Notes under the pieces: generated by a model | What the model was told of the DNA's origin: nothing | Seen by the model: only the letters and a program-made list of their open reading frames with translations | Database searches by the model: none | Program-made: the position numbers and the translations under genes | NCBI GenBank assembly: GCA_011087605.1 | Contig: JAALLE010000014.1 | Span: 1 to 59,525 of the forward strand | Length of the DNA stretch: 59,525 nt | Direction of reading: 5' to 3' | From: Hyphomicrobiales bacterium | GTDB taxonomy: Bacteria; Pseudomonadota; Alphaproteobacteria; Rhizobiales; Rhizobiaceae | Shown here: positions 27,109 to 56,180 of the stretch, piece after piece | Layout: the number at the start of each line of letters is the position of its first letter | How positions within the stretch are numbered: the stretch's first letter is position 1

Positions 27109-28032
27109 TTAGTCGGACGCCAATTTGCCAGTCAGTGCATCCAGTTGATCCAGGCTTTTATAATCGATGGTAACCCGGCCCTTTCCACTCGACTTGTGGT
27201 TGATTGAAACTTTCAGACCCAATGCATCAGTGAGCCGGTTTTCCAATGCCATTGTATCTGCGTCCTTGGCGCTTTTGCCTGACTCACCCTCGGTTGATTT
27301 CGACGACCGCGTATTTTGAGCTGCCAGTTGTTCCACCTGACGGACTGACAGGCCTTCTGCCACAATGCGTTTGGCGAGTGCTTCCGGAGATTCCATGGGA
27401 ATCAAAGCGCGAGCATGACCGGATGACAGAGTTCCTGAAGACAACATGGCTTGAACAGATGCTGGCAAATTCAACAGTCGCAACGTGTTGGCAACATGGC
27501 TGCGGCTCTTTCCAATCACCTTGCCGAGATCGGCCTGCCTGTAGTCATGGTCATCCATGAGTTGGCGATAGCCCAAGGCCTCTTCAACAGGATCAAGATC
27601 TGCCCGTTGAACATTCTCAATAATCGCCAGCTCCAGGGCCTGTCGGTCATCGACCTCACGCAACAGAATTGGGACGCTGTGAATGCCCGCCCTTTGAGCG
27701 GCTCTCCAGCGACGCTCGCCGGCAATAATTTCATAATCAACTATGTTATCCGGATCCTGACTCGGCCGTGCGGAGCGCACCAGGATAGGTTGAATCACCC
27801 CATGCTCGGCAATCGATCTGGAAAGGTCTTCCAGATCTTCTTCCGAAAAATGCCGGCGCGGATTGTTTGGATTGGCCCTGATCGTTTCGATCGGAACAAC
27901 CCTGTCGGTAACAATTTTAGTTTCGGTAGATTCCCCGGCCTCCGCAGCACCAGCTGCAACCGGCTTATCCATTTCTCCAATCAGCGCGGCCAGACCCCTG
28001 CCCAGTCTCGCTTTGGATGGTTCATCAGCCAT
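27109..28032 (-). CDS. parB: Chromosome-partitioning protein ParB
   Basis: A 307-aa CTP-dependent DNA clamp that loads at parS and spreads. Features are the N-terminal ParA-activating stretch RLGRGLAALIGE, the CTP-binding ParB/Srx domain (about 40-140) with the arginine motif IIAGERRWRAAQRAG, the helix-turn-helix YRQADLGKVIGKSRSHVANTLRLLNLP that reads parS, and a C-terminal dimer domain (DALGLKVSINHKSSGKG). It lies downstream of parA in the same direction (33-nt gap). Matching parS sites lie 1.5-3.6 kb to the right. Confidence 0.97.
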   Translation of the reverse strand: MADEPSKARLGRGLAALIGEMDKPVAAGAAEAGESTETKIVTDRVVPIETIRANPNNPRRHFSEEDLEDLSRSIAEHGVIQPILVRSARPSQDPDNIVDYEIIAGERRWRAAQRAGIHSVPILLREVDDRQALELAIIENVQRADLDPVEEALGYRQLMDDHDYRQADLGKVIGKSRSHVANTLRLLNLPASVQAMLSSGTLSSGHARALIPMESPEALAKRIVAEGLSVRQVEQLAAQNTRSSKSTEGESGKSAKDADTMALENRLTDALGLKVSINHKSSGKGRVTIDYKSLDQLDALTGKLASD

Positions 28033-28065
28033 GATCGTTTCCGCCTTTATCAGCTAAAGTCTGCA

Positions 28066-28884
28066 TCACTTATTCAACGCAGATTGCAGTTGTTTTTCCC
28101 GTTGGATCAGTTCCGAAGCCAGCTGCAAATAGGCCTGGCTTCCCGCACATTTCATATCATACAGCAAAACCGGTTTGCCGAAGGAAGGAGCTTCGGATAT
28201 CCGCACATTTCTTGGTATCGTGGTCTCGTAGACAAGATCGCCCAAGGTTTCGCGAACATCCTGAATTACCTGTCCAGAGAGATTGTTGCGTCTGTCGACC
28301 ATGGTCATCACAACACCTTGAATCGATAGTCTCATATTTATAGTCGATCTGACCTGCTCGACGGTCTGCAGTAGCTGACTAAGGCCTTCAAGGGCAAAGA
28401 ACTCAGCCTGCAGAGGTACCAAAATGGAATCCGCCGCGGCCAATGAATTCAGCGTCAACAGATTAAGCGAGGGAGGGCAGTCGATCAGGATATAGGTGAA
28501 GTCTGGTGATCGGCCCAGATGACCGGCAATCGCCTTCTTCAGCCTGTAGGGACGATCGGATTGCGACGCTATCTCCATTTCGACACCCAATAGATCCAGG
28601 GTTGCCGGAGCAATGCTAAGTCTTGGAACCGCGGTTTTCTGAACCACTTCGATCAAACTTTTTGTGCCCATCAGCAGATCATAGGTTGAAGCATCGCGCT
28701 CATCCCGGCCGATACCCAAACCGGTGCTGGCATTTCCCTGGGGATCCAGGTCGATCAGCAAAACTTCCTCGCCAATCGCCGCCAGGGCGGTTGCTAGATT
28801 GATGGCGGTTGTGGTTTTGCCTACCCCGCCCTTCTGATTGGCAAGAGCGATGGTTCTTGGTCGGATATCGCGATTTATGCTCAT
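28066..28884 (-). CDS. parA: Chromosome-partitioning ATPase ParA
   Basis: A 272-aa deviant Walker ATPase. The P-loop is ANQKGGVGKTTTAINLA with the signature first Lys, followed by EVLLIDLDPQGNASTGLG (switch I/Walker A') and YILIDCPPSLNLLTLNSLAAAD (Walker B). ParA binds DNA non-specifically as an ATP dimer and draws ParB-parS complexes apart. It lies first in the parA-parB pair, 69 nt after the rsmG stop, in the leftward series that runs away from the origin. Confidence 0.97.
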   Translation of the reverse strand: MSINRDIRPRTIALANQKGGVGKTTTAINLATALAAIGEEVLLIDLDPQGNASTGLGIGRDERDASTYDLLMGTKSLIEVVQKTAVPRLSIAPATLDLLGVEMEIASQSDRPYRLKKAIAGHLGRSPDFTYILIDCPPSLNLLTLNSLAAADSILVPLQAEFFALEGLSQLLQTVEQVRSTINMRLSIQGVVMTMVDRRNNLSGQVIQDVRETLGDLVYETTIPRNVRISEAPSFGKPVLLYDMKCAGSQAYLQLASELIQREKQLQSALNK

Positions 28885-28953: not shown

Positions 28954-29577
28954 TCATCGTGCTCGTAATGCAGATATTTTTAGGATCACAGACCCATCTT
29001 CCAACTGGCTGTCTGATTGAACAATATCAAATTCCCAGTGTTCTCGGGCATGTTTGATTTCCTCCGCATGGCCACGCCCCTTGGGAAATACTCCAATGGC
29101 ACCAGAAGACAAAAAACCCTGCGTTAAGGTTAACAATTCATTAAGCGGAGCAAGTGCCCGGGCGGTGATCACATCTGGCGCGGCAAGATGCGGTAAGGCA
29201 TTTTCAATACGGTCGTTCACCACTTGAACATCCACACCAGCCTCCCGAAGACCGGTTTTACGGATAACCGCATTCATAAAGGCACATTTCTTGCCGTTGC
29301 TCTCAACCAGATGCACCTTTCCGGCTCCCTTTTCAGCCAGCATCATGGCAATGACCAATCCTGGAAATCCAGCGCCACTGCCAATATCAACAACGGTTTC
29401 AGCATCCTCCAGCACCTCGCAGATTTGCAGGGAATCAAAGATATGGCGCTGCCAGATTTGATTGACTGTTGAAGGCGCGATCAGATTTATGCGGGCCTGC
29501 CACTGAACCAGAAGATCGTGAAAATCTGTGAGTCGTTGTTGTGTTTCACGTGAAACACTCTTGACGTCCCCAATCAA
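28954..29577 (-). CDS. rsmG: 16S rRNA m7G527 methyltransferase
   Basis: A 207-aa enzyme that methylates N7 of G527 in 16S rRNA; its loss gives low-level streptomycin resistance in other bacteria. The SAM motif is [18 protein letters not shown], preceded by RHIFDSLQI and followed by [16 protein letters not shown]. The start is a TTG at 29577 whose last two bases overlap the mnmG stop. Codons 7-12 (Ser-Val-Ser-Arg-Glu-Thr) are themselves the parS palindrome. Confidence 0.94.
29542..29557. other. parS site (consensus) inside rsmG
   Basis: TGTTTCACGTGAAACA is a perfect 16-bp palindrome identical to the widely conserved ParB-binding consensus; with one flanking base on each side the symmetry reaches 18 bp (29541-29558). 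It lies in the 5' end of rsmG, 0.7 kb from parA and 6.4 kb from the presumed origin. Confidence 0.95.
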
Positions 29578-31540: not shown

Positions 31541-31556
31541 CGTTTCACGTGAAACA
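31541..31556. other. parS-like site 2 (one mismatch)
   Basis: CGTTTCACGTGAAACA differs from the consensus only in its first base; the inner 14 bp GTTTCACGTGAAAC is a perfect palindrome. It lies in the mnmG-mnmE gap, 69 nt before the mnmG start. Confidence 0.88.
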
Positions 31557-31591: not shown

Positions 31592-31607
31592 TGTTTCACG
31601 TGAATCA
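31592..31607. other. parS-like site 3 (one mismatch)
   Basis: TGTTTCACGTGAATCA has a single change (A to T at position 14) from the consensus. It lies 36 nt from site 2, in the same gap and next to the mnmE stop. Confidence 0.78.
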
Positions 31608-34867: not shown

Positions 34868-35917
34868 TTAAGCCCTCTGGGGTTGATTTCCACGTACTCG
34901 AGCCACCATTTGCTCCACATGCGCGATATTCGTCTCAGGCGTGATGCCATGCCCCAGATTGAATACCAGAGGTCCATTGGCCAGATTTGATAAAATAGCA
35001 TCTACGCCTTCATCAAGTGCCCGGCCACCAGCAATCAGCCGTTTTGGATCCAAATTGCCTTGAATTGGTGTCTGGTTTTGTAGCTGTTGCGCAAATGACA
35101 TGGGCAGGGTCCAGTCCAGCCCAATCATATCGACGCCCGTTGCTGCAGCATAACCGGAATAAAAAGCACCAATTCCCTTTGGGAATCCAATGATTTTAGC
35201 CTGCGGGCGTTCGGATTTCACCCGTTCCACTATCTGCCTCACCGGCTCAATACACCATTTTTCAAACTGATCCTCATCAAGAACGGATGCCCAGGAATCG
35301 AAAATCTGAACAGCATCAGCTCCAGCGTCTATTTGACCAATCAGATATTGTGCCGATGCGTCGACCAATACATCCATCAACCCCTGAAATGCTTCGGGAA
35401 AATTCAGCGCAAACTGACGAGCCGGTCCCTGATCTGGCGTCCCATGTCCGGCAATCATGTAGGTAGCGACTGTCCAGGGCGCTCCACAAAAACCCAACAG
35501 GGTAGTTTCATCAGGTAATTCTTCACGCAGTCGAGCCACAGTCCCCAGGACCGGTGCCAGATGCTCCATCACACCTGTCGATGCCAACTCAGCAATTCGC
35601 GCCTGATCGACAGTCTCAACGATAGGTCCACGACCTTCTTCAAATCGCACACCGACTTTAAGTGCATCTGGAATAACCAATATGTCAGAAAACAATATGG
35701 CTGCATCAAAGCCAAAGCGTCGTATCGGTTGTAATGTTACTTCAACCGCAAGCTCCGGATTATAACACAGATCGAGAAAGCCACCCGCCTGTTTCCTCAC
35801 CTTTTTATATTCTGGCAGATAACGACCAGCCTGACGCATCATCCAGACCGGTGGAGTGGATAGTGTCTCTCCAGCCAGAACTCTTAACACTTTACGTTGA
35901 GCGTAAGCTGCTTGCAT
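34868..35917 (-). CDS. hemE: Uroporphyrinogen decarboxylase
   Basis: A 349-aa enzyme that removes the four acetate carboxyls of uroporphyrinogen III. Visible are [18 protein letters not shown] (substrate Arg), [17 protein letters not shown]-like [38 protein letters not shown] and [12 protein letters not shown] (His). I use the ATG at 35917; a TTG at 35950 would add 11 residues. It is the first leftward gene beside the presumed origin. In Caulobacter, hemE also flanks the chromosomal origin. Confidence 0.96.
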
Positions 35918-35995
35918 TGTCGATCTACTTTCCACAAGACGTTCGTTCAATAACTGTGATTAAACGTGTTTATTATTCTTATTAGAGTCTGTGAA

Positions 35996-36010
35996 TTAAG
36001 AGAATTTTAA
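35996..36010. promoter_or_regulatory. CtrA binding site TTAA-N7-TTAA
   Basis: TTAAGAGAATTTTAA is followed by CC and matches the full CtrA recognition sequence TTAA(N7)TTAAC. A GAGTC methylation site for CcrM lies 7 nt upstream (35985-35989), and a one-mismatch DnaA box (35990-35998) overlaps its left half, so bound CtrA would compete with DnaA. Confidence 0.7.
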
Positions 36011-36292
36011 CCAATTCCCAAATCTCAAAATTCTACTCCCATTAGTCGCTATGTAGGATATTGCATCGCCGGTGAAAAGAATAGCGGGGAAAAAACATTT
36101 ATCTAATTAAAAACAATGAGTTATCAACTCAACTTATGTGGTAAACCTCATGAAGGATTTATAACTTCCCGGGATAACTCAAGTGATCCCCAATCTTGCC
36201 CACAGGGGTATTCTTAATTCCCTGCCGGTTTGTCTGGGGATGAAATTGTTGCCAACGGGCGCAAAATGGGTGCCTATCAATTTGGTGCTGAC

Positions 36293-36301
36293 TTATTCAC
36301 A
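36293..36301 (+). other. Consensus DnaA box
   Basis: TTATTCACA matches the TTATNCACA 9-mer exactly and lies 35 nt before the start of the PPDK-regulator gene. It is the only exact box I found in the gap. Confidence 0.75.
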
Positions 36302-36335
36302 GTCGTCCACAATTGGCAAAGCAGGAACTGACCGA

Positions 36336-37190
36336 ATGGTAAAACGCTGGATTCAGAGGGCTCGCGAGAAGGTCAGCAAGAAAACTTTCTTTCATTTGCA
36401 CCTTATCTCGGATTCGACCGGTGAAACGCTAATCACAACCGGACGGGCGGCTGCCGCCCAATATACCAATTGGCGGGCAGTCGAACATGTTACTCCAATG
36501 GTGCGCAGCGCCGAGAAGCTGGAAAAGGCCTTGAACGGTGTCGATGCCACGCCCGGTATTGTTTTATACACCATGGTGGACCAGAAACTGGAATCCATTT
36601 TGGTAAATCGCTGCAAGGCCCTGGGGGTTCCTGCTGTCAACGTATTGGACCCTGTCACCAAAGTATTTGATGGGTTCCTGGGAGATACAATGTCCGGGCG
36701 CGTTGGTGCGCAGCACGCTATGGATGAAGAATATTTTGACCGCCTCGAAGCGGTGCAGTTTGCGATGGCCCATGATGACGGCAATTTGCCGGACGATATC
36801 GAGGAAGCGGAAATTATTCTGATTGGCATCAGCCGAACCTCCAAAACACCAACCAGCATCTATCTGGCTCAGCGGGGCATCAAGACCATCAATATTCCAT
36901 TGGTGCCGGGTGTTGATCTGCCGGCAGAAATAATTTCTGCAAAACAACCATTGGTCGTTGCGCTGGTCGCTTCTGCTGAACGCATTCTACAGGTCCGGGA
37001 GAATCGCCTGCTGGCATTTGACCGGGATCTGACCGGCGACATCTATGTTGATCGTGCTTCGATTCAGGAGGAGCTCGCATTGACGCGACGTCTTTGCAAA
37101 CAAAATAACTGGCCGATGATTGACGTATCCAAGCGATCAGTTGAAGAAACCGCTGCAGCTATTCTGGCGTTGCGCCGTAATCGGACCTAA
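36336..37190 (+). CDS. PPDK/PEP-synthase regulatory kinase-pyrophosphorylase (DUF299)
   Basis: A 284-aa bifunctional protein that switches pyruvate phosphate dikinase (or PEP synthase) off by ADP-dependent phosphorylation and on by phosphate-dependent removal. Family blocks are FFHLHLISDSTGETL, IVLYTMVDQKLE, the P-loop GISRTSKTPTSIYLAQRGIKT, NIPLVPGVDLP and IDVSKRSVEETAA. The frame is open to 36183, but that stretch is the origin region. The ATG at 36336 with AGGA 9 nt upstream is the likely start. It is the first rightward gene from the origin and may act on the same PEP/pyruvate node as pckA. Confidence 0.93.
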   Translation: MVKRWIQRAREKVSKKTFFHLHLISDSTGETLITTGRAAAAQYTNWRAVEHVTPMVRSAEKLEKALNGVDATPGIVLYTMVDQKLESILVNRCKALGVPAVNVLDPVTKVFDGFLGDTMSGRVGAQHAMDEEYFDRLEAVQFAMAHDDGNLPDDIEEAEIILIGISRTSKTPTSIYLAQRGIKTINIPLVPGVDLPAEIISAKQPLVVALVASAERILQVRENRLLAFDRDLTGDIYVDRASIQEELALTRRLCKQNNWPMIDVSKRSVEETAAAILALRRNRT

Positions 37191-55730: not shown

Positions 55731-56180
55731 GAATTCTCTCCATATATATTCCGACAGTCTCATTGAAAGACTGCCGAATGGCCAATTTTACAGCCATTAG
55801 AAGTTGATTAGAGGCAAAATCAGATTGTGCCAAGAACCCACTTGCGGTTGAACCAAGACCAATTTGCCAAAATTGCGCACAAATTATGGCCAGCTGATGA
55901 AGTCATGCAGTTCGATTGATTCAAACCCTAAACGATTGAATTTTTGACTTGTTAATCCTGAGCAAAATTAACTTTCAGTTTTAATCGATTTACCAACCAA
56001 ATCGACCCCAAAACCACCGATTCCAATCTTGTCATAGACGATTAGCCTGCCTAGTGTCCGCCGCAACTCCAGTCGCAGAAAGCAGATTTTAATCTTTGGT
56101 TTCCAGATACGCGGCATTGTTCGTAGTCGTCGCATCGGCAGCTTTTGACAGATCTATCGACCCAAAAAAGGCATTGAGTT
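55731..56180. promoter_or_regulatory. chvI-pckA divergent intergenic region
   Basis: A 450-nt AT-rich gap with no coding frame of note. Near chvI lies an inverted repeat CAGTCT/AGACTG with a 7-nt loop (55755-55773), extended to 9 bp with one mismatch. In the middle, around 55920-55990, lies a very AT-rich stretch with repeated TTTTTGACTTG- and TTAATC-like motifs, a possible promoter zone. Both flanking genes must start in it, and control of pckA by ChvI is plausible but not shown by sequence. Confidence 0.5.

Follow-up and report, generated by a model that had tools for sequence, protein, structure and literature searches.

Introduction

In E. coli, Dam and SeqA act at the GATC sites of oriC, and in Caulobacter dnaA lies near the chromosome origin. 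The closest described counterparts of the locus studied here are the origins of Caulobacter crescentus and Rickettsia, which are located between hemE and a COG1806 gene (PMC1914354). The location of the origin that we describe follows this known alphaproteobacterial rule; it is textbook knowledge and not new. For strand opening, the BUS model proposes that DnaA binds single strands in three-base steps, and the BUS rule, in the available part of the source, is a DnaA box followed by at least three contiguous NAN trios within 16 bp (PMC8287927). GANTC motifs are already in print for Caulobacter origins and for repABC origins (PMC3973325, PMC11514494, PMC6090056), and CcrM is reported to be essential in most alphaproteobacteria studied (PMC6090056).

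We analyzed one stretch of DNA of 59,525 nt, here called the window, which is contig C45 of a 177-contig, 4.19-Mb draft genome. Its nearest relatives in the genome collection compared are uncultured 'Rhizobiaceae bacterium' assemblies. The gap between hemE and the PPDK-regulator gene in the window is very probably the bidirectional, DnaA-dependent origin of the main chromosome, with direct support from its position, the skew, parS, box enrichment, conservation and a triplet constraint. Judged by sequence comparison, the hemE-side core, which a preliminary description of this DNA had overlooked, is the strongest conserved block of the gap. A triplet-periodic unwinding element with a built-in methylation site, as this core appears to be across the family loci examined, may be new.

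Results

A divergent gap between hemE and the PPDK-regulator gene

The gap and the two genes that flank it are located as follows.

35918..36335, candidate origin gap, 418 bp, divergent, between hemE and the PPDK-regulator gene
34868..35917, minus strand, hemE, uroporphyrinogen decarboxylase (TIGR01464, 407 bits)
36336..37190, plus strand, PPDK / PEP synthase regulator, COG1806 (NF003742, 317 bits; PF03618, 286 bits)

The preliminary description had placed the origin at 35928..36301. The place stands, and the bounds were corrected to 35918-36335 because alignments to homologues of the two flanking genes begin at 35917 and 36336, in most genus loci at codon 1 or 2. The strand switch is present as claimed, but this is not the only sizeable non-coding gap to have one: a second divergent gap of 417 bp, at 55764-56180, separates a minus-strand response regulator from a plus-strand neighbor that we take to be pckA, and it contains no one-mismatch TTATCCACA site. 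The open frame over the right half of the gap (to 36183) had been judged probably non-coding, and indeed the reading frame is not conserved among 13 genus members. We rejected a coding role since the in-frame extension upstream of 36336 runs anywhere from 2 to 96 codons before a stop in these members, and the nearest pair differs 5/11/7 by codon position in that frame.

Curated family models identify hemJ, rho, mnmE, mnmG, parA and parB to the left of the gap (ParA below cut-off) and maf and coaE to the right; the gene between the last two is presumably aroE. The 'Caulobacter-type' gene order proposed earlier therefore holds for the flanking genes (PMC1914354) and fails for the adjacency of dnaA, which lies on another contig. 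hemE and the PPDK regulator are divergent around such a gap in 157 of the 161 loci examined, and hemE is absent from the locus in 4 of the 161; this count sets aside nine loci (the window's own and eight taken as copies of genus genomes) as well as sampled stretches. The loci were taken from 90 of the 96 genomes with a PPDK-regulator match, out of 121 genomes searched, and some sit in two of our sets (L011/L179, L015/L163).

A PPDK-regulator match is absent from 25 of the 121 relatives' genomes. The 20 such genomes listed all belong to the window's family, two of them to its genus, and most are at least 97% complete; because they are mostly near-complete, this origin-flanking gene seems often to have been lost or replaced in the family. 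One genome without a match, G014, is a single 0.9-Mb contig of the same genus, 98% complete, where the other genus genomes are mostly 2.4-4.8 Mb, and it may be a reduced symbiont genome.

Skew minimum at the gap and parS sites nearby

GC skew had been suggested as a check, and its minimum falls at the gap both in the window, where the cumulative G-C minimum is at 36226, and in G006, a near-complete relative of the same genus with one 4.45-Mb contig. Forty samples of 20 kb bracket the cumulative minimum of G006 between 4.025 and 4.116 Mb (skew -0.078 in the sample starting at 4005000 and +0.019 in that starting at 4116250), and five further adjoining stretches locate it in the 2.5-kb bin 4077500-4079999. 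The gap of G006, 414 bp long, lies within this bin just before the start of the PPDK match at 4078539.

Segregation genes and parS sites are found nearby on the window.

29542..29557, parS TGTTTCACGTGAAACA, exact
31541..31556, parS-like CGTTTCACGTGAAACA, one mismatch
31592..31607, parS-like TGTTTCACGTGAATCA, one mismatch
27109..28884, minus strand, parB and parA (ParB over cut-off for PF02195/PF17762 and TIGR00180)

The parS pattern with at most one mismatch has only three matches in the whole 4.19-Mb draft, all on the window contig and 4.3-6.4 kb from the gap, and a reversed-pattern control has one. Similarly, 15 of 19 parS-like sites in six genus relatives are about 4.3-6.5 kb from the relative's own gap (reversed-pattern control, 5 in total). 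ParA family models are matched only below cut-off, and parA is named by homology and position. Since the skew minimum, the parS-like sites and the enrichment of DnaA boxes described below agree, we consider the earlier placement of the chromosome origin between hemE and the PPDK-regulator gene to be right.

Weak DnaA boxes are enriched in the gap

Candidate binding sites in the gap are listed here.

36293..36301, plus strand, putative DnaA box TTATTCACA, R4-like, at the far end
36303..36311, plus strand, second putative box TCGTCCACA, two mismatches, 10 bp after the first
35990..35998, minus strand, putative weak DnaA box TAATTCACA, R1-like, one mismatch to TTATNCACA, adjoining the triplets
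35955..35963, minus strand, DnaA-box-like TTAATCACA, one mismatch to TTATNCACA
36187..36192, plus strand, TCCCCA
36235..36240, minus strand, TCCCCA

The box at 36293-36301, previously called exact, is exact to the relaxed pattern TTATNCACA and has one mismatch to TTATCCACA; where four one-mismatch boxes had been counted, we find two further ones relative to TTATNCACA (35955 and 35990). Box clustering in the gap is above chance for TTATNCACA within one or two mismatches and for TTATCCACA within two. Three sites are within one mismatch of TTATNCACA, compared with a shuffle mean of 0.53, and ten are within two mismatches of TTATCCACA, compared with 1.9; none of 200 shuffles reached either count. 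There is no enrichment in the gap for TTATCCACA within one mismatch (one site; 34 of 200 shuffles reach one). The 59,525-nt window has no exact TTATCCACA, and the draft genome has 14, against 17 for the reversed-pattern control. One-mismatch TTATCCACA sites across the whole window are at chance (12 versus 11.0), which indicates that the enrichment is local and of weak sites.

Sites within one mismatch of TTATNCACA are also in excess among relatives, with 45 versus 5.9 in shuffles for 13 genus gaps, 152 versus 19 for 74 further relatives and 127 versus 18.6 for the 70 loci of the genome_contigs set, which by title are mostly Caulobacterales and Hyphomonadaceae; the last two sets overlap by a few loci. 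A plus-strand box of this kind is present in the last 110 nt in 11 of the 13 genus members, and in 10 of these 11, counted by eye, it has a partner ending in CACA 10 bp further on. On the hemE side, relatives carry a TAATCCACC-type box where the window has TAATTCACA, and TTAATCACA is found at the same position only in L081 and L082. Comparison of these two, the nearest pair, shows conservation at either end of the gap and divergence in between: per 20 positions they differ at 1, 1 and 0 around the hemE-side block and at 1-4 in the final 118 nt, but at 8-13 in the 80 nt that vary most. We take the two TCCCCA sites to be Caulobacter W-box cores. The IHF site consensus is WATCARNNNNTTR, to which the gap has no exact match on either strand.

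A triplet-periodic core next to hemE

The hemE-side end of the gap contains the following overlapping features.

35970..35998, core block of T-rich triplets, GAGTC and a reversed weak DnaA box
35950..36009, the window's least stable 60 bp, a candidate DNA unwinding element
35970..35985, plus strand, T-rich triplet run TTATTATTCTTATTAG, DnaA-trio-like
35985..35989, GAGTC, a CcrM site (GANTC) with no second copy in the gap, flanked by the triplets and the DnaA box
35996..36010, plus strand, CtrA-like TTAA-N7-TTAA, overlapping the box region

With a nearest-neighbor energy of -65.4 kcal/mol, 35950-36009 is the least stable of the 59,466 overlapping 60-bp stretches of the window; an AT-rich segment in the gap had already been pointed out and is present. 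We think it likely that the strands open at this block. The plus strand at 35990-35998 reads TGTGAATTA, the minus-strand box being TAATTCACA.

At a threshold of 8 bits, a profile built from the 13 genus blocks matches 24 of the 40 gaps from other genera of the family, always on the same strand and no more than 130 nt from hemE, and none of the dinucleotide shuffles. At this score it matches none of the 34 gaps from the order's other families, and 3 of the 70 genome_contigs loci. A wider motif scored above 10, an arbitrary cut-off applied without a shuffle control and after two identical sequences were dropped, in all 13 genus loci, in 62 of the 72 from relatives and in 48 of the 70 genome_contigs loci (155 distinct gaps). 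Its consensus ends GTGGATaaCGGGGATtA, which reads as two reversed weak DnaA boxes.

Among 72 family loci, a T is near-invariant in every third column of the triplet run. At most one change is seen in each of columns 15, 18, 21, 24, 30 and 33, and three are seen in column 27, whereas columns 17, 20, 23, 26, 29, 32 and 35 change 7-18 times. Over columns 15-35, a range picked after looking at the data, period 3 explains 0.63 of the column-change variance (reached by 7 of 20,000 permutations), its multiple period 6 explains 0.70, and periods 2, 4 and 5 explain about 0.10 or less; columns 15-26 alone give 0.68 for period 3 (201 of 20,000 permutations). Both strands have in-frame stop codons in many rows, so that by our reading the periodicity is not coding. 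By analogy, the constraint fits a protein that reads three bases at a time, as DnaA would in the BUS model.

Held against the BUS rule, the window's box qualifies, as TAATTCACA has two mismatches to TTATCCACA (L082 and L084 share the same box), but its triplets read TAG TAT TCT and the third, TCT, leaves fewer than three NAN trios. The nearest relative, L082, has five trios at the block. Of the 13 genus members, 7 satisfy the rule at the block, 5 with a 4-bp spacer, compared with 0.9 of 13 in shuffles; among other family loci only 4 of 59 do so. The rule is loose, since the window's gap satisfies it at 36137, 36184 and 36196, all outside the block. The comparison nonetheless fits a core that works like a BUS, although the window's block fails the NAN rule.

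A GANTC slot between the triplets and the DnaA box

GANTC fills the slot between the triplets and the box in 69 of the 73 family loci given (46 GAGTC and 23 GACTC), as located with a family model that was trained on mostly GANTC-bearing sequences and so favors finding GANTC. Three of the remaining four loci have the block and one does not. The 73 include genomes without a PPDK regulator and four plasmid-collection records; a 74th locus, L289, has no convincing block and was left out. By group, the slot holds GANTC in 13 of 13 genus loci and in 36 of the 38 loci from the family's other genera that bear the motif (40 examined; L163, with the slot, and L179, without it, are copies of rows in another set and are left out of the 38). 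It does so in 0 of 24 motif-bearing loci from other families of the order (34 examined) and in 2 of 48 motif-bearing genome_contigs loci (70 examined), namely L013, titled Hyphomicrobiaceae, and L015, an Aquibium with the same sequence as family locus L163. With these counts outside the two family sets, we rejected the idea that the slot is general in Alphaproteobacteria.

GANTC is in excess in the hemE-proximal 100 nt of the genus (19 versus 5.6 in shuffles) and of other families of the order (50 versus 19). It is not enriched there in the genome_contigs set (45 versus 34; largest shuffle 55). Since other families are enriched and yet lack GANTC in the slot, the enrichment extends past the family and the slot does not. 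The genome encodes a RAMA-domain protein, and GcrA and CtrA-family models are also over cut-off. We take the RAMA domain to be the C-terminal family of CcrM; among 14 control genomes its model matches only in Caulobacter. The two sequence marks that a hypothetical CcrM-controlled origin would carry are present, a conserved core GANTC and an encoded CcrM-type enzyme, the latter recognized by its C-terminal RAMA domain only.

We would give roughly even weight to the reading that GANTC is an accident of a GC-containing spacer set by the geometry of a DnaA filament, with no methylation role. Across 72 loci the middle base of the slot is either G or C, which a GC spacer would require. Firing of A. 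tumefaciens ori1 is not significantly changed by CcrM depletion or overexpression, the proportion of cells with two ori1 foci being similar upon depletion (about 58% to 52%) and that of single-ori1 cells being 47% versus 45% upon overexpression, not significant (PMC11514494, available part), and in Caulobacter initiation control does not depend on CcrM, according to the available part of PMC3973325. This Caulobacter finding may not apply here, however, as only 2 of the 48 motif-bearing genome_contigs loci have the slot. A quick tree of 71 hemE rows gives 11-12 switches of the middle base between G and C, compared with 3, 2, 0 and 1 changes for the flanking G, A, T and C, and these repeated flips argue for selection on the palindromic GANTC itself. 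An accidental spacer also sits poorly with the GANTC excess near hemE in other family genera (117 versus 28 shuffled; 29 per kb, compared with 2.9 in the window as a whole). That methylation of the slot would gate initiation is nevertheless unlikely in our estimate, because the A. tumefaciens and Caulobacter CcrM data speak against a strong effect. Neither the fixed slot nor the triplet constraint was found described in the literature searched by full text, a coverage that leaves out most subscription papers, and the available part of an Ensifer methylation paper (PMC8725594) makes no mention of the slot.

A CtrA-like site limited to four genus members

The CtrA site of the preliminary description is borne out as a sequence match, 35996-36010 being exact to the TTAA-N7-TTAA consensus. 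It is doubtful that CtrA silences the origin through this site as in Caulobacter. The site overlaps the stretch in which the first and second weak boxes lie, four genus members (L081-L084) share it unchanged, the other three of which have PPDK-regulator proteins 81-98% identical to that of the window, and the genome has the CtrA-family match noted above. But TTAA-N7-TTAA at the block is confined to these 4 of the 13 genus members and to 4 of the 73 family loci (10 of the 73 have it somewhere in the stretch given), and two of the three exact matches in the window are inside rsmG and mnmE. In several relatives a second weak box, TAATCCCCG, occupies this position. In S. meliloti, according to the available part of PMC4433202, CtrA does not bind the chromosome origin. 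The CtrA-like site is possibly a lineage-specific feature.

The block probably stays with the origin and not with hemE

Somewhat less probable again is that the conserved block is the hemE promoter, perhaps regulated by GcrA/CcrM, and that the working parts of the origin are elsewhere in the gap. In promoters, GANTC is known to serve as a CcrM/GcrA signal (PMC11514494), the genome encodes GcrA and a CcrM-type domain, and the motif is 14-125 nt from the hemE start in loci scoring above 10, partly a promoter-like distance. A scan of 35850-36400 for sigma-70-like promoters, of the E. coli type only, found 0 compared with a shuffle mean of 1.1, and the least stable DNA, the weak DnaA boxes and the three-base periodicity fit DnaA better. 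Further evidence against a promoter comes from hemE copies that are displaced from the origin. We compared eight hemE records, the best Rhizobiaceae-type matches chosen from 73 records with hemE (two K101 near-copies left out). All four in an origin setting (S. meliloti CP090106.1, Shinella sp. PSBB067, Sinorhizobium sp. K101 and Rhizobium sp. NLR16a) have the block with GAGTC, and none of the four outside it (an S. mexicanum plasmid, an Aminobacter plasmid and two similar-sized Rhizobium replicons, judged to be about three independent cases) has the block. We therefore rejected the possibility that the block follows hemE and not the origin.

Among 17 family genomes in which hemE was detected and the PPDK regulator was not, 15 still have the block beside hemE, a result that fits the promoter and the origin alike and does not separate them. 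Adding two genomes of other families in which the genes are apart gives 15 of 19 loci, all 15 of the family; in these two, G106 (L288, L197) and G090 (L290, L195), there is no block on either side, and the model is poor outside the family.

Several records in the plasmid collection are of interest in their own right. A 489-kb Rhizobium replicon called 'plasmid p3' (NZ_CP072868.1, 423460-429488) carries the whole origin neighborhood, block included, in the order mnmE-rho-hemJ-hemE-gap-PPDK regulator-maf-aroE, and may be a chromosome piece, a mislabel or a second origin. The 3.72-Mb S. meliloti record CP090106.1 is labelled pSymB and starts at a chromosome-type origin gap, so that the label is probably wrong; the Shinella and Sinorhizobium K101 records look similarly mislabelled.

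Finally, it is highly improbable that the gap is an ordinary intergenic region and the origin is elsewhere, for example at dnaA: dnaA is indeed on a contig of the draft other than the window's (C67), and the coarser, noisy skew of G047 did not point at the locus (minimum about 0.25-0.5 Mb, locus 0.70 Mb), but the G006 minimum is at the gap and about 243 kb from dnaA, parS sites cluster near the gap, and DnaA boxes are enriched in three sets with 157 gaps in total.

As a separate observation, contigs C1 and C2 of G006 have 32 identical-scoring matches to the DnaA-family ATPase scattered genome-wide, 31 in open frames of 287 aa and one in a frame of 235 aa; these are probably IstB-type insertion-sequence genes.

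Discussion

A working scheme for this origin can be proposed, in which we infer DnaA binding, the opening site and helicase loading. DnaA would bind the far-end boxes at 36293-36311, the scattered weak boxes and the weak box at 35990-35998. From this last box a filament would run into 35970-35985, binding single-stranded DNA in three-base steps, and would open the strands in the least stable segment, making helicase loading possible. ParB on the parS sites 4.3-6.4 kb away would then segregate the origin copies. Even without a role for methylation, the triplet pattern would be a sequence signature of DnaA filament stepping.

A more ambitious joint reading, which we regard as speculative and rather unlikely, is that the family has a dedicated CcrM site in its opening core, between the first DnaA box and the single-strand triplets, at the very place where E. 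coli oriC has a Dam site, with a hemimethylation brake and with CtrA-like silencing in a subclade. Until CcrM acted late in the cell cycle, the hemimethylated site left by the fork would weaken the passage of DnaA from the box into the triplets, and two unrelated methylases would have converged on one once-per-cycle brake. In the window's subclade the adjoining box would have turned CtrA-like, adding Caulobacter-style silencing. If methylation of the slot matters, CcrM would be tied directly to initiation.

The core resembles a BUS (PMC8287927, available part) in its box, short spacer and triplets with 5'-TAG-3' (3'-GAT-5') nearest the box, and, by our reading of that source, in its strand geometry. 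It differs in that Rhizobiaceae fix one T per triplet and not the middle A, and in the failure of the window's block to satisfy the NAN rule. With the hemE-COG1806 origins of Caulobacter crescentus and Rickettsia the locus shares the flanking genes, a gap of about 0.4 kb that is AT-rich relative to the genome, DnaA sites and a CtrA-like site (PMC1914354, available part). In contrast to these origins, the window has one CtrA-like site, which is lineage-limited, no strict IHF site and no dnaA near the gap, and its core has a GANTC, which the motif-bearing genome_contigs rows lack in the slot except for L013 and L015. The S. meliloti origin (CP090106.1, positions 1-401) has the same gene pair and the same block with GAGTC; its triplet run is TTTCTATTTCTTAG where the window has TTATTATTCTTATTAG, and there is no CtrA-like site at its block.

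E. coli oriC (L291) was also compared, using a 43-base query that matched 4796 of 5426 E. coli genomes. The methylation site is a Dam GATC in oriC and a CcrM GANTC in the window, 14 GATC sites are listed for oriC versus one GANTC in the window's gap, and the distance from the start of TTATTAG to the box is 20 bp in E. coli and 11 bp in the window (9 bp more in E. coli). The two nevertheless share TTATTAG, a methylation site, a reversed box and a far-end forward box in the same order and orientation: TTATTAG - GATC - TGTGGATAA with TTATCCACA at the far end in E. coli, and TTATTAG - GAGTC - TGTGAATTA with TTATTCACA at the far end in the window.
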